Source of the DNA: Amycolatopsis umgeniensis
GTDB taxonomy: Bacteria; Actinomycetota; Actinomycetes; Mycobacteriales; Pseudonocardiaceae
Assembly: GCF_014205155.1 (NCBI RefSeq)
Contig: NZ_JACHMX010000001.1
Span: forward strand, 8,928,001-8,992,000
Reading direction: 5' to 3'
Length of the DNA: 64,000 nt
The notes under the pieces are model-generated. The model was not told the origin of the DNA and made no database searches. It worked only from the letters and a program-made list of their open reading frames with translations. A program made the position numbers and the translations under genes. This document shows positions 25,119-33,627 of the stretch, in pieces; the first letter of the stretch is position 1; each line of letters begins with the position of its first letter.

Positions 25119-25727
25119 ATGGCGAAGCGAGGAGACAGGGGCGGGGCGAAGACGCGGGCGCATATCGCCGCCGTCGCGACGGAGCTGTTCCTGGAGCGCG
25201 ACTTCGACGACGTCACCGTCGCCGAGGTCGCCGCCGCGGCCGGTGTGTCGAAGGTGACGGTGTTCGCGCACTTCGATCGCAAAGAGGACCTCGCGCTCGA
25301 CAGGCTGCCTGACGCCGTCGGTATCGCCAGGGCCTCGATTCGCGAGCGGCCGGACGGGGTGGACGTCGTCGAAGCCTTGCGCCGGACGGCTCTCGCCCTC
25401 GCGGAAGAACAGCATCCGCTCTCAGGGCTGGCCGAGGGGGGCGATCCGCTCGCGCGCACTGTCGCCGGTTCGCGGGCGCTCATTTCGCGGCTGCGCGAGT
25501 TCGAGCACGAGATCGAGGCGGAGCTGGCCGACGAGCTCGAGAACGACGCCCGGTTCTCGGGCGACAGCGAACTGGTCGCCGCGCTGATCGTCGCCGCGTA
25601 CCGCACCGTCGCCGTGGCGACGGTGCGGCGACGCCTCCACGGAGACGATCTCGCCGCCGTGGTCACCGCGCACTGCGAGCGGTTGAACGCCGCCTTCGGC
25701 GCGCTGTCCACGGCTCTGCGGAGCTGA
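25119..25727 (+). CDS. TetR-family transcriptional regulator
   Basis: The 202-aa protein (ATG 25119) has a standard TetR N-terminus: a DNA-binding domain at residues about 10-56 with the recognition helix in VTVAEVAAAAGVSKVTVFAHFDRKEDL. The C-terminal domain is helical and variable. It is divergent from the FAD monooxygenase gene and should bind the 25066-25104 repeats, repressing itself and the monooxygenase until an aromatic ligand is present. The ligand is unknown. Confidence 0.92.
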   Translation: MAKRGDRGGAKTRAHIAAVATELFLERDFDDVTVAEVAAAAGVSKVTVFAHFDRKEDLALDRLPDAVGIARASIRERPDGVDVVEALRRTALALAEEQHPLSGLAEGGDPLARTVAGSRALISRLREFEHEIEAELADELENDARFSGDSELVAALIVAAYRTVAVATVRRRLHGDDLAAVVTAHCERLNAAFGALSTALRS

Positions 25728-25739
25728 GCTCATACCGCC

Positions 25740-25775
25740 GGGCCGCACCAGATGCGGGAGCACCTGATGCGGCCC
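25740..25775. terminator. Bidirectional hairpin between tetR and ovoA
   Basis: GGGCCGCACCAG (25740-25751) and CTGATGCGGCCC (25764-25775) pair at 11 of 12 positions. The hairpin lies between two convergent genes and should stop transcription from both sides. Confidence 0.6.
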
Positions 25776-25785
25776 TGTGGCGGGG

Positions 25786-28056
25786 TCAGCGCTTACGCCA
25801 GATCGAGACCTCAAGATCGGTGATCTCGTACCGGCGGCCGTCGACCCTGGTCAGGCTCGGCTCCGTACTTTCCGACAGCAGCTCGAACGCCTCGCCGAGG
25901 ACGTTCGCGAGTTCGGCGGCCGACGCCCGCGGGAGCGCCACGAGCAGCAGCCCTCCTGCGCGCAGGAGGTTCGCCGAACCGACGAGCGGTCGCAGGTAGC
26001 CCGCCGCGCCGCCGAGTCGGTCGAAGGCGTCCGCCACGACAGCGCCGTCGAACGTGCCGAGAGCGGCGGGTGGACGGGCCGTCTCGGCGAGGACGAACGA
26101 GACACCGCCGCCCGCCGAGAGCGACGGCCGCCGCGCGTGCAGCTCCCCGCGTCCCGGCACCCGGTAGCCGACATCCGTGCCTTCGGCGAGCCGGTCGGCC
26201 GCCGCGATGAGCGACGGCCGGTCGTCAAGGCCGACCACCTCGACCGGATACCGGGCGAGCGAGAACGCCAGCCCGCCCGCCCCGGTGGCGAGATCCGCGA
26301 CACGGCGTAGCTCGACCCCGGCGGTGGCCGCGGCTTCGGTGAACTTCGCGGTCAGCCGGTCCGGATAGGCCGCGGTCGCGGCGAGCGGGTGCCCGGTCCG
26401 GCCGAAGGCCTGTTCGGCGGTGCCGTACTGGCCGAGCAGCACCCGGTCGAGCTCCGCGCGCGCCTCGCTGTCCACAGTGGATTCCGGTGCCACGACCAGC
26501 CGGATCCCCGCCTGCTGCAGGAAATGCGGCCGGTAGAAATGCCGCGCCCAGATACTGCCGAGTTCGCCGGTGCTGATGTACGCGCCGCCGAGGATCAGCT
26601 GATGCTGCCCGCCGTAACTGGGTACCGAGAAGTCCTCGTAGTAGGGATGCGGGGTGAAGCCTTCGAGCGGGTTGAAGGTGTCTTCGCTCCACGCCCACAG
26701 GTTGCCGCCGGCGTCGTGCAGGCCCTGAGAGGTCGTCGGCGAGAGGTCGACAGGGCCTTCCGAACCCCAAGCGAGACCGAGGTTGACGCCTGCCTCACGC
26801 AGCTGCCCGCCGTCGAGCCGCATGACCACGTCGTCCGCGACTCCGGGACGTTCCGGCAGATCGCGCAACAGGAAGTACTCCGCTTCGGTCGGCAGCCGGT
26901 AGTCCCGACCCTCCTTTTCGGACCGCCAGGCGGCGAAAGCCTTGGCCTCGTGGTAGTTCACCACCACCGGCCAGTCCCATGGCATGTCGATCTCGTCGAA
27001 CAACGTGCGCAGCCGGAACGCGTGCAGCCCGGTCGGGCCGGTCGGGATCCAGAAACGCGGCCACTTGGTGTTGCGGAAGCGGCGCCAAGCCTCGCCCTCC
27101 GCCGACCACAACTCCGGCCGCCGGTAGCCGCCGTCGGCGACGAATCCGTGGAACTCGCCGTTGCTCACCAGACAGCGCGCCGCTTCGAAGTCCGGCAGCT
27201 CCTGGCGGCGTGAACCGTACGCGCTGTCCCAGCCGTAGGACGGGAAGGACAGCGGTTTGCCGAGCTGGGCCGTGCGTCCGGGCACGGTGACGGTGCCGTT
27301 GGCCGGTACGGAACCCGGCTCGGGTTTGCCGGTCTCGGTGGTGCGGCGCAGCGGTGACGGTGCCGGCCACGCGGCGGGCCGTTCTACCAGGCGCGAACGC
27401 ATCTCGCGGACCAGCACCGAACTGGTCTCGAGGTGGATGCGATCGTGCTCGATGGACAGCAGCAGGGCCCACGCCTGGTCGTTCATCGTCACCGGGCGCC
27501 CGAGGTCGGGGGCGAACGGCGTGGTCTCGATGATGCCGACGACCGTCCGGTACACCTCGGCCCGGTAGTCCTTCACCTCCGAAACCGACGGCCACACCAT
27601 CTCGTTCTTCGACATGTCGTCCCACGAGTTCTCGTCGACACCCATTTCCAGGATGTGCTCGAGGTAGGCGTCGATCGGCGCGTCCAGCAGCCCGGAAACC
27701 CGCAGCTTGTTGACGTACAGCGAAGTCGTGTGGCCGTAGTAGAAGATCATCGGGTGACGCAGGTTGTGGTCCGGCGGGCGGTAGAACGCTTCCGCGCCCT
27801 TCAGCCCGGCGAACATCACCTCGTGCAGTGTCCAGGCGTTGTCGAAGTAGTCCAGCACCTCTTCGCGGCTGCAGACGGACAGATCGGGCAACGGCAGTGC
27901 CCTGATCTCGCCGGATTCGGCGACACCGGGGCAGCGGCCGGGTTCCGGGCGGACCCCGGTGTACCACCACTGTGGATCCCGGGGTCCGTTCAACCGCTCG
28001 TCCGCGTGTTTCAGCGCATTTCTCTCCCAGGGTTCCGTATTGACCGTCGACGTCAT
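25786..28056 (-). CDS. ovoA: OvoA-type 5-histidylcysteine sulfoxide synthase with C-terminal methyltransferase
   Basis: The 756-aa protein has three parts: a DinB domain (about 60-225), an FGE-sulfatase domain (about 265-525) and a class I methyltransferase domain (about 555-756). The iron ligands of EgtB/OvoA enzymes are visible as His109 (YYGHTTSLY) and the H-x3-H-x-E motif His204, His208, Glu210. Fusion with a C-terminal methyltransferase matches OvoA, which joins cysteine sulfur to histidine C5 with O2 and later N-methylates to ovothiol; EgtB lacks that domain. The methyltransferase is divergent (DLATGAGG at 588-595 is kept). A 19-codon ORF ends 11 bp upstream. Divergent ATP-grasp and MFS genes suggest further processing of the product. 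Confidence 0.85.
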   Translation of the reverse strand: MTSTVNTEPWERNALKHADERLNGPRDPQWWYTGVRPEPGRCPGVAESGEIRALPLPDLSVCSREEVLDYFDNAWTLHEVMFAGLKGAEAFYRPPDHNLRHPMIFYYGHTTSLYVNKLRVSGLLDAPIDAYLEHILEMGVDENSWDDMSKNEMVWPSVSEVKDYRAEVYRTVVGIIETTPFAPDLGRPVTMNDQAWALLLSIEHDRIHLETSSVLVREMRSRLVERPAAWPAPSPLRRTTETGKPEPGSVPANGTVTVPGRTAQLGKPLSFPSYGWDSAYGSRRQELPDFEAARCLVSNGEFHGFVADGGYRRPELWSAEGEAWRRFRNTKWPRFWIPTGPTGLHAFRLRTLFDEIDMPWDWPVVVNYHEAKAFAAWRSEKEGRDYRLPTEAEYFLLRDLPERPGVADDVVMRLDGGQLREAGVNLGLAWGSEGPVDLSPTTSQGLHDAGGNLWAWSEDTFNPLEGFTPHPYYEDFSVPSYGGQHQLILGGAYISTGELGSIWARHFYRPHFLQQAGIRLVVAPESTVDSEARAELDRVLLGQYGTAEQAFGRTGHPLAATAAYPDRLTAKFTEAAATAGVELRRVADLATGAGGLAFSLARYPVEVVGLDDRPSLIAAADRLAEGTDVGYRVPGRGELHARRPSLSAGGGVSFVLAETARPPAALGTFDGAVVADAFDRLGGAAGYLRPLVGSANLLRAGGLLLVALPRASAAELANVLGEAFELLSESTEPSLTRVDGRRYEITDLEVSIWRKR

Positions 28057-28067
28057 CTGACCTCACT

Positions 28068-28127
28068 TCAGTTCGTCGGGGCACTGAGGGCCGGCTGCGA
28101 AAACCGTCGCATCTTCGAAAAGGTCAT
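28068..28127 (-). CDS. 19-aa small ORF upstream of ovoA (leader or precursor peptide)
   Basis: The ORF encodes MTFSKMRRFSQPALSAPTN. It is preceded by the strong ribosome binding site GAAAGGAGAGGAA (28128-28140), better than that of ovoA itself. The stop lies 11 bp before the ovoA ATG, and the ovoA ribosome binding site overlaps the small ORF's 3' end, so the two are probably on one mRNA. The peptide is basic, has no His, Cys, Asp or Glu, and ends in a Pro/Ser/Ala tail. It could be a regulatory leader or a precursor for the neighbouring ATP-grasp ligase. No known family is recognised. Confidence 0.5.
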   Translation of the reverse strand: MTFSKMRRFSQPALSAPTN

Positions 28128-28258
28128 TTCCTCTCCTTTCGTGCCCTGAATCGCCCTTCTGAAGAAGTCCGGCTGGACAGCGCAAGCGCGGAGATGCCCC
28201 TTGATCACGGGAGATGGGACCGTCGGCGTTCCGATTCCTCCAGTTGCGAGGTGAAAGC

Positions 28259-29536
28259 TTGTCGACGAAACCCTGTGTCGTGCTCGTGGACACCTACGAA
28301 ACCGCCGACCACGGGTTGCCGCAGACCGCTCGGCACATCGCGCCGACGTTCGTGGCGCTCGGCGCGGAATGCGTGCGCGTGCAGAGCGCGCCCGACGCGC
28401 CCGGGCAGTACCGGAAGTCCTCACCCACCATGAGCAACTACCGCGAGAACATCGTCCACGACGGCGATCTCACGAAGACGCTGGACGCGCTGTCCGTGCA
28501 CGAGCCGGTCGCGGTCGTGGCCGGTGGCGAGTACGCGGTCGCGTTCACCGACGTGCTCAGCGAAGCACTGGGGGTACCGTCGAACGGCACCGCCCTGTCC
28601 TTGGCGCGGCGGGACAAGTTCGCCATGGGTGAGGCCGTCGACGCGGCGGGCCTCAACGGCGCGAGACAGCTCCTGACAGCCGATGAGGCCGAGCTCGCCG
28701 CTTGGCACCGGGCGATGGGCGGCAGGATCGTGGTGAAGCCGAACCGCAGCGCCGGTGGCGACGGGGTGGCCTTCTGCGACACCCCGGAACGGTCGGTCGA
28801 GGCCTTGCGCGCGATCACCAGCCGCCAGAACGTGTTCTCCGAGGACAACGACTTCGTCGTCGCGCAGGAGTATCTCGCCGGCAGCGAGTACATGGTCAAC
28901 ACGGTGAGCATGGACGGACTGCACCAGGTGTGCGACATCTGGAAGAGCTCGCGGTTCGCCATCAACGGGGTGTCCGATCTGCTCGGCGCCTGCCAGATCG
29001 TGCCGCGTCGCGCGCCGGGCCACGACGAGCTGGTGGAGTACGCGTTCGCCGTGCTCGACGCGGTGGGCATCCGGCACGGGGCCGCGCACGTCGAGATCAA
29101 GCTGACCCCGCGGGGACCGCGGCTGATCGAGGTGGGTTCCCGGCTTTCCGGCGGCGACCTGCCACATCTGGCGCGGCTCGCGATCGGCGAGTCCCAGCTG
29201 GACTGGATGGCCGACGCCGTGCTCCGGCCGGAGAGGTTTCGCGAGCGCTGGGGCGAGGACTACCGGATCCAGCGCCACTACGCGTGGTCCGCGCTGCTCT
29301 CGCCGGTCGAGGGCACACTCCGCCGGTACACGGTGCTCGAGGAGATCGAGCGGCTGGAGAGCTTCCACGAGATGTTCGTGCTGACCCGGCCCGGGAAACC
29401 GTTGCGCCGCACCGTCGACGACACGACGTTCCCGGTGGTCGTCACGTTCATGCACGAGATCGAGGAGTACGTCCTGCGCGACCTCGGCACGCTGCGGTAC
29501 CTCGACGGTGTGGGCTGCTACGAGCTGGAATCATGA
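28259..29536 (+). CDS. ATP-grasp ligase (L-amino-acid-ligase-like)
   Basis: The TTG at 28259 with GAGGTG at 28248-28253 is the best start, giving 425 aa (in-frame ATG at 28214 has no site). ATP-grasp motifs are clear: VVKPNRSAGGDGVAF (nucleotide-binding lysine and glycine-rich loop, near 158-172) and AHVEIKLTPRGPRLIEVGSRLSGG (metal-binding Glu near 280 and 292). The pattern is that of BacD-like ligases that join amino acids through acyl phosphates. It is coupled to an MFS gene, as in bacilysin-type ligase/exporter pairs, and divergent from ovoA. An acid or peptide built from a thiohistidine is a plausible substrate, but this is inference. Confidence 0.85.
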   Translation: MSTKPCVVLVDTYETADHGLPQTARHIAPTFVALGAECVRVQSAPDAPGQYRKSSPTMSNYRENIVHDGDLTKTLDALSVHEPVAVVAGGEYAVAFTDVLSEALGVPSNGTALSLARRDKFAMGEAVDAAGLNGARQLLTADEAELAAWHRAMGGRIVVKPNRSAGGDGVAFCDTPERSVEALRAITSRQNVFSEDNDFVVAQEYLAGSEYMVNTVSMDGLHQVCDIWKSSRFAINGVSDLLGACQIVPRRAPGHDELVEYAFAVLDAVGIRHGAAHVEIKLTPRGPRLIEVGSRLSGGDLPHLARLAIGESQLDWMADAVLRPERFRERWGEDYRIQRHYAWSALLSPVEGTLRRYTVLEEIERLESFHEMFVLTRPGKPLRRTVDDTTFPVVVTFMHEIEEYVLRDLGTLRYLDGVGCYELES

Positions 29537-30741
29537 CGGCGCAAGGGTTCCTGCGGACGCGGCTCGGCGGGCTGCCCAAATCGTTCTGGGTGCTGTGGAC
29601 GGGCACGCTCGTCAACCGGCTCGGCACGATGGTCCTGCCGTTCCTGGCGTTGTACCTGACCAGCGAGCGCGGCCTTTCGGTGGCGACGGCGGGTACCGTG
29701 CTGGCGCTGCTCGGGATCGGGCAGGTGTTCTCGCAGCTGATCGGTGGCGTGCTGGCCGACCGCATCGGACGGCGGGCGACACTGACCGGAGGCATGCTCG
29801 CGACCGGCGCGATCATGCTCGTGCTGGGTTACGTCGAGCGCCTCGAACTGATCGCGGTCGCCGCGCTGCTGCTCGGGCTGGCGCTCGACGTGTTCCGCCC
29901 GGCGACCCAGTCGATCGTGGCGGATCTGGTGCCGGGCGCCGACCGCACGCGGGCCTTCGGACTGCTGCTGTGGGCGATCAACCTCGGCTTCTCGATCGCG
30001 ATGGTACTGGGCGGCACGATGGCCCGCGCCGGTTTCACGACGTTGTTCTGGGTGGACGCGGCGACGTGCGTGCTGTTCGCCCTGTTGGTGTGGAAGGCGG
30101 TACCGGAGACGCGCGGTGGCGGCCCGACCCGGGAGCGGGGTGGCTTCACCGTCGTCTTGCGCGACCGGGTCATGGTCGGGTTGATGCTGGTCTCGCTGGC
30201 GGTCGCGTTCGTGTTCCTGCAGAGCTTGGCGACCCTGCCGCTGGCGATGAGGGAGGACGGCCTTTCGCCGGCGGGGTACGGCCTGGTGATGGCTGTCAAC
30301 GGGATCGTCATCGTGGTCGTGCAGCCGCTGGTGGGTCATCGGCTGGGCCGTTGGGATCCTTCACGGGTGCTCGCGTGCGGGATCCTGTTGACGGGCTTGG
30401 GTTTCGGTGCCACGGCCTTCGCGTCGACGACACCGGTGTACGCGGCGTGCGCGGTGTTCTGGACGCTCGGCGAGATCGTGATCCAGTCGGTGGGCGTCGC
30501 GATCGTGGCCGAACTGGCCCCACCGCATCTGCGTGGGCGCTACAACGGCGCCTACGGTACGGCGGCGGGCCTCGCCGCGTTCGTCGCTCCGTTGGGCGGA
30601 ACCCAGCTGCTGGTGCTGGGCGCGCCGGTGCTGTGGACGGTCTGCCTGGCCCTGTGCCTGGCCGCGGCCGTCGGCCAGCTGTTGCTCGGCAACGCCGTCC
30701 GCCACCGGATGGCCACCGCGTCCGTTCCCGTGGCGGCCTGA
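29533..30741 (+). CDS. MFS transporter, probable exporter
   Basis: The ATG at 29533 overlaps the ATP-grasp stop (ATGA, 29533-29536) and gives 402 residues with about 12 membrane helices. The motif A region reads LIGGVLADRIGRRATLTGG (residues about 71-89). It most resembles drug/metabolite exporters. Translational coupling with the ligase suggests export of the ligase product. No other transport gene lies in this locus. A role in uptake cannot be excluded. Confidence 0.88.
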   Translation: MTAQGFLRTRLGGLPKSFWVLWTGTLVNRLGTMVLPFLALYLTSERGLSVATAGTVLALLGIGQVFSQLIGGVLADRIGRRATLTGGMLATGAIMLVLGYVERLELIAVAALLLGLALDVFRPATQSIVADLVPGADRTRAFGLLLWAINLGFSIAMVLGGTMARAGFTTLFWVDAATCVLFALLVWKAVPETRGGGPTRERGGFTVVLRDRVMVGLMLVSLAVAFVFLQSLATLPLAMREDGLSPAGYGLVMAVNGIVIVVVQPLVGHRLGRWDPSRVLACGILLTGLGFGATAFASTTPVYAACAVFWTLGEIVIQSVGVAIVAELAPPHLRGRYNGAYGTAAGLAAFVAPLGGTQLLVLGAPVLWTVCLALCLAAAVGQLLLGNAVRHRMATASVPVAA

Positions 30742-30748
30742 TCCGGCT

Positions 30749-31390
30749 TCACCCCGCGGTGGGGCGACCGTCCATCCTGGACGCGAGGATCGCCGCGCCG
30801 GGACCGGAAACGTCGCCGAGAGCGGCGACCCGGCCCGCGATCGTCAGCAGGAGCGCCTCGCCACGGCCATGGACTTCCGGCCCGGACCCGGTCGACCAGC
30901 CGAGATCGGTGGCGACGAGCCGGAGCCCGCGTGCTCGCCGGCCGGCCTTGATCGGCGGGGCGTGGAGAGCGAAAGCCAAGGCGTGACGCAGCCGATCCGG
31001 CGGCACCTCGCGCGGGAACCCCAGCGGGCGTCGAATGTCCTGATGGTGGATGAGCCCGTCGAGCAACGCCACCCGTCCGCCGAACGCGGAGGTCAGGCCG
31101 CGCGGCTCGAGGTGCTCCTCGATCCTCGCGATCAGCTCGTCCGGTGTCCGGTCGGGTTTGCGCGCGACCCCGAGCGCGTTCATCCTGTTCAGCCGCAGAC
31201 CGGCACGGAGGGCCTGACCGAACAGGTCCCGGAGGCGCAGGGCGTCGTAGTCGACGACATGGGCGACCACTTCCCGGACCGTCCACTCCGAACACAACGT
31301 CGGCTCGTCCCAGTGCAGGGGGGACAGAGTCCGCAGGAACGCGGCGAAGTCCGCACGTTCTTCCCTGGCGAGTCGAGCGACGGTGTCCAC
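30749..31390 (-). CDS. Maleylpyruvate isomerase/DinB-family, possibly mycothiol-dependent protein
   Basis: The GTG at 31390 follows an AGGAGG site and gives 213 residues; longer in-frame starts have no such site. The N-terminal MDMPI-like DinB helix bundle is recognisable from SPLHWDEPTLCSEWTVREVVAHVVDYD, where the conserved W..vaHl segment carries one of three metal His residues; HHQDIRRPLG supplies another. Family members use mycothiol as cofactor or bind metal; catalysis here is not proven. It converges with the MFS gene and leaves a 7-bp gap. Confidence 0.8.
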   Translation of the reverse strand: MDTVARLAREERADFAAFLRTLSPLHWDEPTLCSEWTVREVVAHVVDYDALRLRDLFGQALRAGLRLNRMNALGVARKPDRTPDELIARIEEHLEPRGLTSAFGGRVALLDGLIHHQDIRRPLGFPREVPPDRLRHALAFALHAPPIKAGRRARGLRLVATDLGWSTGSGPEVHGRGEALLLTIAGRVAALGDVSGPGAAILASRMDGRPTAG

Positions 31391-32331: not shown

Positions 32332-33627
32332 TCAGCAGTTCTCCATGAAGTGCCGGAGCACCCGCGTGCCGAACCGCAGCCCCTCGACCGGGACGCGTTC
32401 GTCGACACCGTGTGCCATCGCGCGATAGGGGAAGCCTTCCGGCAGCCACAGCGGCGCGAAACCGTAGCAGTCGATCCCGAGCGGGCTGAAGGCTTTCGCG
32501 TCCGTCCCGCCGCCCATGCAGTAGGGGACCACCACGGCTTCGGGATCCTCCGAACGCAGCGCGTCCGCCATCGCGTCGAACCACGGCGAGTCCACCGGGG
32601 CCTGGACAGGCGGCTGGTGCGCGACGAATTCGCGCGTCACGCCTTCGCCGAGCATCGCGTCGATCTCGGCGAACAGGTCCGGCTCGGCACCGGGAAGGAC
32701 GCGGACGTCCACCTGGGCCTCGGCCGAACTCGGGATCACGTTCACCTTGTAGCCGGCGTCGAGCATGGTCGGCGTCGTGCTGTTGCGGACGGTCGGCACC
32801 ACCAGCGCCCCGGCGGGCCCGAGCCGCGCGATCGTTCCGTCCACATCGGACAGATCGACCGGGACCCCGAGCGCCTCGCCGGTGCGCTCCAGGAAGGCTT
32901 GCACCGTCGGGGTCAGCTGGACCGGCCAGCGGTGCGCGGCGATCTTGCCGAGCGCGGCGACCAGCCGGGTGACGGCGTTCTCGTCGTTGGGCCGCGACCC
33001 GTGCCCCGCGCGGCCTTTGGCGGTCAGCCGCAGATGCGCGGTGCCGCGTTCGGCCGTCGCCACCGGATAGAGCCGTACGGTCCGTCCGTCGGCGGCGGGG
33101 ACGTGGTAGCTGTAGGCGCCCGACTCGCTGATCGCGGCCGCGCAACCGTCGAACAGGTCGCGGTGTGCCGCGGCGAGCCAGTGCGCGCCGTATTCGCCCT
33201 TGTCCTCCTCGTCGGCCACGAACGCGAGCACGATGTCCCGCCGCGGCCGGAAACCGGTGGCGAGGGCGGCGAGCACCATCGCGCAGAAGTCCTTCATGTC
33301 GACCGCGCCGCGACCCCACAGGAATCCGTCGCGGACCTCGCCCGAGAACGGGTCCATCGACCAGTCGGCGGCGTCGGCCGGGACGACGTCGAGATGCCCC
33401 TGCACGAGCAGCGCGGGCAGGCTCGGGTCGGTGCCGGGGACCCGGGCGATCACGTTCGCGCGCCGGGGCGCGGACTCGATGATCTTCGAGTCGATCCCGA
33501 GCCCGGACAGCAGCGACGCGACGTACTCGGCAGCCTCGCGCTCGCCCTCGGAATCCCCGTTGCCCCGGTTCGTGGTGTCGAACCGGATCAGCCGGGAGCA
33601 GACTTCGACGACATCCAACTCAGCCAT
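32332..33627 (-). CDS. M20-family metallopeptidase/deacylase
   Basis: The 431-aa protein has M20 metal-ligand motifs: GHLDVVP (His78), GAVDMKDF (Asp110), and VADEEDKGEYG (catalytic and metal Glu140/141). A dimerisation domain (KGRAGHGSRPNDENAV) and a late GGTDAKAF motif with the last His/Asp region follow. It should be a cytosolic two-metal hydrolase of peptides or N-acyl amino acids. Its start overlaps the M55 aminopeptidase gene by 8 bp, suggesting a two-gene peptide-degradation operon. Confidence 0.93.
   Translation of the reverse strand: MAELDVVEVCSRLIRFDTTNRGNGDSEGEREAAEYVASLLSGLGIDSKIIESAPRRANVIARVPGTDPSLPALLVQGHLDVVPADAADWSMDPFSGEVRDGFLWGRGAVDMKDFCAMVLAALATGFRPRRDIVLAFVADEEDKGEYGAHWLAAAHRDLFDGCAAAISESGAYSYHVPAADGRTVRLYPVATAERGTAHLRLTAKGRAGHGSRPNDENAVTRLVAALGKIAAHRWPVQLTPTVQAFLERTGEALGVPVDLSDVDGTIARLGPAGALVVPTVRNSTTPTMLDAGYKVNVIPSSAEAQVDVRVLPGAEPDLFAEIDAMLGEGVTREFVAHQPPVQAPVDSPWFDAMADALRSEDPEAVVVPYCMGGGTDAKAFSPLGIDCYGFAPLWLPEGFPYRAMAHGVDERVPVEGLRFGTRVLRHFMENC

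Follow-up and report, generated by a model that had tools for sequence, protein, structure and literature searches.

Here we describe a three-gene locus within a 64,000-nucleotide (nt) stretch of the genome of the soil bacterium Amycolatopsis umgeniensis (contig NZ_JACHMX010000001.1 of assembly GCF_014205155.1, positions 8,928,001 to 8,992,000 of the forward strand; hereafter referred to as the window), in which a gene for an OvoA-type sulfoxide synthase adjoins genes for an ATP-grasp ligase and a major facilitator superfamily (MFS) transporter. The OvoA gene (positions 25786 to 28056 of the window, minus strand) encodes 756 residues, consisting of a sulfoxide synthase part (DinB/FGE; residues 1 to 525, 26482 to 28056, minus strand) and a C-terminal methyltransferase part (residues 526 to 756, 25786 to 26481, minus strand). 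The ligase gene (28259 to 29536, plus strand; 425 residues) begins with a TTG codon preceded by a GAGG ribosome site, and the MFS gene (29533 to 30741, plus strand; 402 residues) overlaps it by 4 nt, with its start codon sitting within the ligase stop (ATGA, 29533). The two starts diverge across 202 base pairs (bp; 28057 to 28258, from the ligase TTG to the OvoA ATG), and no other gene intervenes among the three. This arrangement agrees with a preliminary description of the window, in which OvoA was said to diverge by about 200 bp from an ATP-grasp ligase coupled to an MFS gene. The TTG start and the 4-nt overlap are present in seven of seven genomes carrying the locus, in which the gap between OvoA and the ligase measures 189 to 202 bp (189 to 199 bp in the six relatives). 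A scan of positions 25700 to 30900 returned zero promoters and zero terminators. The intergenic region contains a conserved block on the OvoA strand with the start of a short leader open reading frame (28057 to 28136, minus strand), which has a strong ribosome site and begins with MTFS(K/E)MRRF in all seven genomes; it spans 19 to 20 codons in five of them and, in the other two, runs in another frame and has no stop before the OvoA start. The genome is 9.2 Mb in size and has A. decaplanina, A. azurea and A. keratiniphila among its near relatives.

The N-terminal part of the window OvoA matches the OvoA model TIGR04344 with 545.4 bits, above the cut-off of 400. Of the DinB, FGE and methyltransferase domains and the H-x3-H-x-E iron motif assigned in the preliminary description, the FGE domain (FGE-sulfatase, PF03781) and the motif are borne out, the latter as HDRIHLE (residues 204 to 210), in which both histidines and the glutamate are invariant in alignment A1 (23 sequences). 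A search at E ≤ 0.001 reports no DinB_2 domain in the window protein, although the domain is reported for its relatives P0004 (among precomputed domains) and P0006, and the methyltransferase domain is weakly matched and decayed, as described below. Further natural fusions are seen among OvoA proteins with precomputed PF01594 (P0053 and P0087) or, in a fungus, PF01231 (P0080) domains.

On the methyltransferase model TIGR04345, the C-terminal part reaches 45.9 bits, short of the cut-off of 170. The compared OvoA relatives score 243.2 (P0121), 141.6 (P0009), 135.1 (Streptomyces sp. RerS4), 105.9 (P0027), 85.8 (P0013) and 66.6 bits (P0005), and neither P0019 nor P0006 has a match; only P0121 thus exceeds the cut-off, which is strict, since the intact-looking proteins P0009 and RerS4 also fall below it. 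The S-adenosylmethionine (SAM) motif I DxGCAVG has become DLATGAG or DLATAAG in the window protein and the two proteins closest to it, which have also lost the SPWSW...WLGG segment that the solved OvoA chain 8khq and the aligned proteobacterial OvoAs retain. A tree of 40 rows places the window OvoA in a seven-row clade with P0003, P0004, P0005, P0006, P0018 and P0019 (support 100/99). Simple patterns detect no motif I in six of its seven members and no WLG segment in any of the seven, which include P0018, a protein from a contig of 2,011 bases that may just be truncated, and P0019, in which the methyltransferase is reduced to a stub of about 60 residues. Among 14 other proteins with 53–59% identity (P0007–P0017 and P0020–P0022), motif I is absent from one and the segment from three.

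Pairwise ratios of nonsynonymous to synonymous substitution rates (dN/dS) among the seven genomes (21 pairs) point in the same direction. The mean dN/dS is 0.234 for the methyltransferase part and 0.082 for the synthase part, which is under strong purifying selection, compared with 0.108 for the ligase, 0.087 for the MFS gene and 0.085, 0.089 and 0.049 for the flanking M20, GDSL and M24 genes, respectively. In every one of the 21 pairs the ratio is higher for the methyltransferase part than for the synthase part (minimum 0.121 versus maximum 0.107), and the mean dN ratio between the two parts is 3.0 (0.072/0.024), as against 0.78–1.86 in nine listed control pairs from other bacteria with at least 85% synthase identity, and 1.84 for the OvoA pair from Actinophytocola and Nonomuraea jiangxiensis (loci L035 and L036; 72% synthase identity). 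Judged from its sequence, the methyltransferase part of the window OvoA is decayed, and we infer the loss of its activity. Ovothiol itself is therefore an unlikely product, and we rejected an ordinary ovothiol cluster on the same grounds.

The ligase matches PRK07206 (308.8 bits), the best subfamily model, which carries only the name 'hypothetical protein', and ATP-grasp_4 (36.1 bits; cut-off 27). Its AlphaFold model has a predicted local distance difference test score (pLDDT) of 95.5, and the first six Foldseek ranks for this model are L-amino acid ligases (LALs), the best including 3vot, 4wd3 (RizA) and 3vmm (BacD), at 13–19% identity in the top matches. The best solved chain by sequence is 30vh (189.7 bits). 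With both the ATP-grasp domain and the predicted LAL fold, the protein is probably an L-amino-acid-ligase-like enzyme. The MFS protein is 70–73% identical to the MFS proteins of two clusters outside the window clade (L123 and L124), of which the L124 copy matches PF07690 with 205.8 bits; it is presumed to be an exporter, transport direction being a property that cannot be read from sequence.

Several lines of evidence connect the three genes. Above all, the 961-residue protein P0006 (represented by five member sequences and a single 327,910-base contig) joins a region corresponding to residues 1 to 561 of the window OvoA (81% identity) to one corresponding to residues 5 to 425 of the window ligase (76% identity), so that the ligase occupies the position of the methyltransferase. 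OvoA passes its cut-off in seven of 80 Amycolatopsis genomes, and the divergent three-gene layout is kept in all seven. A ligase with at least 93% identity occurs in seven of 390 genomes of the family, the same seven, and the next best ligase has 76% identity. By its own terms, the preliminary description would have been refuted had the ligase and transporter genes never been linked to OvoA in related strains; they are linked in every one of these genomes, which are close relatives and count as one event. An OvoA of this kind is rare: at E ≤ 1e-60, OvoA is found in six of 397 genomes of the order, including a remnant in genome G019 and a divergent match in genome G268, and in one of 394 genomes of the class, the window genome itself. 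In G019 (locus L135), a frame-shifted C-terminal OvoA remnant (about residues 567 to 756) adjoins the M20 gene; the surrounding 20 kb contain neither a ligase nor an MFS gene, and a scan of the family at E ≤ 1e-100 found no ligase in G019. This remnant without the other two genes, the purifying selection on all three and, foremost, the fusion support a functional unit, and the OvoA, ligase and MFS proteins of the window very probably act together. On the fusion, the methyltransferase decay and the remnant, we rejected chance neighbourhood as the leading explanation. Two flanking genes were also rejected as members of the set: the TetR gene (25119 to 25727) as a regulator, because it was not found in the fetched loci of five of the seven genomes and still adjoins the OvoA remnant in G019, and the M20 peptidase gene (32332 to 33627), because it remains where the trio is gone. 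Among the open-licence PMC publications listed, none was on an OvoA with an ATP-grasp ligase, which does not prove that there is none.

These features suggest the following pathway. The iron-dependent sulfoxide synthase domain, to judge from its family and conserved iron motif, would join the sulfur of cysteine to the imidazole of histidine, and a pyridoxal 5′-phosphate (PLP)-dependent C–S lyase encoded elsewhere in the genome would release a thiohistidine, which would be left unmethylated by the decayed methyltransferase. The BacD-like ATP-grasp enzyme, given its family, fold and fusion, would then activate an amino-acid carboxylate with ATP and form a peptide bond to or from the thiohistidine, and the co-translated MFS pump would export the product and perhaps also protect the producer. 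We put the probability of such a product, an unmethylated thiohistidine coupled to an amino acid and then exported, at roughly 60%. The thiohistidine conjugation and export role proposed in the preliminary description is thus partly supported and stands as the best inference, amended in that ovothiol itself is unlikely. A more specific version, in which this OvoA lineage swapped its methyltransferase for a dipeptide ligase, within a single fused protein in one relative, and came to produce a bacilysin-like exported dipeptide, an antimetabolite with a thiohistidine as its unusual residue, is tentative, and we consider it less likely to hold than not. Of the whole proposal, the cooperation of the three genes has the best support and the exact chemistry the least.

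A number of observations weigh against this conjugation and export pathway. The P0006 fusion comes from a single contig. Methyltransferase damage is also found in P0013 and P0015, which have no known ligase nearby, and the dN/dS of the methyltransferase part, well below 1, indicates some constraint, so that this part may keep some role. Furthermore, the ligase and OvoA occur apart. At E ≤ 1e-100, the ligase is present in 17 genomes of the family, of which ten, including two other Amycolatopsis genomes, lie outside the window clade, and OvoA passes its cut-off in none of these ten. The nearest ligases outside the clade, in G929 and G949 (75–76% identity), are accompanied by the same MFS family (70–73%) in the absence of OvoA. 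In the clusters of these two (L123 and L124), a DUF2000 protein, a weakly prephenate-dehydratase-like protein of 192–196 residues and a class I aminotransferase stand beside the ligase and MFS genes, a layout that we take to resemble the bacA/bacF/bacD/bacE set of bacilysin (BacA–F). Among the L124 copies, on which the family assignments of these neighbours were tested, the prephenate dehydratase match is weak (16.3 bits; cut-off 25.2), and this protein has no significant match in the PDB. As the closest relatives of the window ligase adjoin such a protein and an aminotransferase, its partner residue need not be a thiohistidine. Conversely, no relative of the ligase lies in the 22 kb around the Actinophytocola OvoA (best match genome-wide 1e-14), and no ligase lies in the 42 kb around the OvoA of Streptomyces sp. 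RerS4.

The Nonomuraea jiangxiensis locus L036 bears on the same question. Here an OvoA gene (58% identity) is followed by genes for a SufS-like PLP protein, a ligase (49%), a second ATP-grasp protein and an MFS transporter. The ligase is nearer to those of clusters without OvoA (62–65%) than to the window ligase, tblastn found no relative of the window MFS in this locus, and the OvoA retains its methyltransferase motifs. The locus is thus another case in which OvoA accompanies a member of the ligase family, and not the same cassette, and it argues against a strict exchange of the methyltransferase for a ligase. The ligase–MFS pairs without OvoA in G929 and G949 and the OvoAs without the ligase in Actinophytocola and Streptomyces sp. 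RerS4, together with the close relationship of all seven window-type genomes, could mean that OvoA makes its thiol alone and that the ligase and MFS proteins serve another small-peptide pathway, their adjacency being an accident of one Amycolatopsis lineage. This is decidedly improbable in view of the fusion, the methyltransferase decay in the clade of the fusion, the disappearance of ligase and MFS beside the G019 remnant and, with its caveats, the Nonomuraea linkage; as the fusion and not Nonomuraea carries the functional link, those caveats leave our estimates as they stand. By its distribution, the ligase–MFS pair is a portable cassette that works without OvoA in relatives, and the ligase family looks like a general tool for which OvoA is one of several suppliers of an odd amino acid.

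Further clusters were observed around relatives of these proteins. In L127, L128, L129 and L132 (genomes G823, G829, G307 and G1055), the ligase occurs with a SufS-like protein, a CysK–rhodanese fusion and a LysA-like decarboxylase, with a second ATP-grasp protein in three of the four, and with an MFS transporter and parts of an oligopeptide-type ATP-binding cassette (ABC) transporter (families tested on the L129 copies); these clusters perhaps encode another sulfur amino-acid peptide pathway. On two Streptomyces plasmids (L148 and L149), a ligase gene (51–53% identity) and an MFS gene are divergent, and the ligase is followed by genes for a phytanoyl-CoA dioxygenase, a SUMF1/EgtB-type protein and an asparagine-synthetase-like protein; the SUMF1/EgtB-type protein of L148 is not OvoA-like and scores 86.6 bits on the EgtB model (cut-off 360). 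A linear plasmid of Streptomyces sp. RerS4 (L146) carries an OvoA that belongs to the same wider clade, has a more complete methyltransferase (135.1 bits) and stands without the ligase, surrounded by methyltransferase, radical SAM, aminotransferase and ketosynthase genes. The G268 match (L145, 3475 to 5813, minus strand) is a stand-alone OvoA-like domain with 320 bits on TIGR04344, below the cut-off, a TGA being read inside the longer match; a RimK-like ATP-grasp gene follows 62 nt after it, and the two are perhaps an independent synthase–ligase pairing. A conserved flavoprotein, labelled '28' (P0243–P0362; L036, 13787 to 15535, minus strand; L035, 13173 to 15092, plus strand), has no match in Pfam or NCBIfam and no significant match in the PDB. 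It adjoins OvoA or lies one gene from it in L035 and L036, and in seven named records it and OvoA lie on contigs of equal size. Its model (pLDDT 72.6) resembles flavin monooxygenases and halogenases, and fusions to FHA, ATP-grasp or MFS domains occur in the family. We rejected it as a member of the set, as the window genome has no match at E ≤ 1e-20, and likewise the PLP decarboxylase '29', a partner of OvoA elsewhere, which has no match within the window.

In line with the preliminary description, which saw no separate lyase gene in the window, a tblastn search of the window with nine PLP enzymes (E ≤ 0.001) found none, a further point on the opposing side. Of a complete ovothiol A set (OvoA, a PLP lyase and an active methyltransferase), the window thus holds an OvoA with a decayed methyltransferase and no lyase. 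Elsewhere in the genome there are class V PLP proteins, one of which scores 164 bits on the EgtE model (cut-off 400), and EgtB, EgtC and EgtD, all above their cut-offs, lie together with an EgtA-like gene (287.5 bits on the start used; cut-off 370.8), so the lyase is possibly encoded outside the window. OvoB is described in PMC12631010 as a broad-specificity β-lyase, so a general lyase could serve. The SufS-like protein of L036 need not be an OvoA lyase, as its relatives accompany the ligase in genomes without OvoA.

The lack of a lyase in the window also fits a different chemistry, in which the enzyme sulfurates C2 rather than C5, or the histidine–cysteine sulfoxide stays uncleaved, and the ligase uses that product. 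The EgtB-IV chain (PDB 8vih, named 'Sulfoxide synthase EgtB-IV'), an enzyme that sulfurates C2 during ergothioneine synthesis, reaches 566.5 bits on TIGR04344 and thereby outscores the window OvoA itself. The OvoA model thus does not decide between C5 and C2, nor does it prove that the window enzyme would sulfoxidate histidine with cysteine at C5, and automatic names such as '5-histidylcysteine sulfoxide synthase' may be wrong for some proteins, given that EgtB-IV lies well above the cut-off of this OvoA 'equivalog'. However, the best solved chain for the window protein is OvoA 8khq (370 bits), followed by EgtB-IV (299 bits), and its wider group carries the OvoA methyltransferase domain, above the TIGR04345 cut-off in P0121 and below it in P0009 and RerS4. 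We consider C2 sulfuration or an uncleaved sulfoxide unlikely, though not negligible.

Returning to the exported thiohistidine conjugate, its destination could also differ. Thiohistidines are redox-active, as stated in PMC12631010, and with a transporter of either direction the conjugate could serve the cell itself, as mycothiol does, as a thiol with a redox or metal-binding role, the MFS protein being an importer or an unrelated pump. The rarity of the locus (seven of 80 genomes in the genus and, class-wide, only the window genome), its near-complete deletion in a close relative, the ergothioneine gene set in the same genome and the sharing of the cassette with bacilysin-like clusters make such a role quite unlikely.

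If the bacilysin-like version of the pathway is correct, the locus would represent a new class of natural product, in which a sulfoxide synthase supplies an unusual amino acid that is sent out, perhaps into rivals, as a peptide. The pathway would also show a ligase–transporter cassette exchanging its amino-acid supplier, here OvoA and elsewhere a bacilysin-like pair. Comparison with the bacilysin-type cluster illustrates this exchange: the ligase–MFS pairs of L123 and L124 stand with a weakly prephenate-dehydratase-like protein and a class I aminotransferase, whereas OvoA stands in place of those two genes in the window, where tblastn found no relative of the L124 aminotransferase, the prephenate-dehydratase-like protein not having been searched there by itself. 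Like the L-amino acid ligases 30vh, BL00235 (3vot), RizA (4wd3) and BacD/YwfE (3vmm), the window ligase has the ATP-grasp domain family and fold, but it differs from them in its low identity to the top Foldseek matches and in its partner, OvoA; PnaC of the phosphonoalamide pathway (PMC11867202) is a further ligase of this kind. The ovothiol pathway (OvoA, OvoB and the C-terminal methyltransferase OvoC/OvoM) shares with the window the iron motif of the synthase domain, and its enzyme 8khq is the best solved match, whereas the window has a decayed methyltransferase, no OvoB-like gene and an attached ligase and transporter. According to PMC12631010, finding enzymes that use 5-thiohistidines is a critical prerequisite for understanding these thiols, and 5THNAT is, besides the OvoA methyltransferase, the only such enzyme known; the fusion of a ligase to the synthase offers a direct, testable lead to another. 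As described in the same paper, 5THNAT (Proteiniphilum) is encoded next to OvoA and, as the window ligase would, competes with methylation for the 5-thiohistidine that it modifies, and some truncated OvoAs without a methyltransferase adjoin it; it is, however, a GNAT acetyltransferase found mostly in Bacteroidota, whereas the window encodes an ATP-grasp ligase in Actinomycetota.

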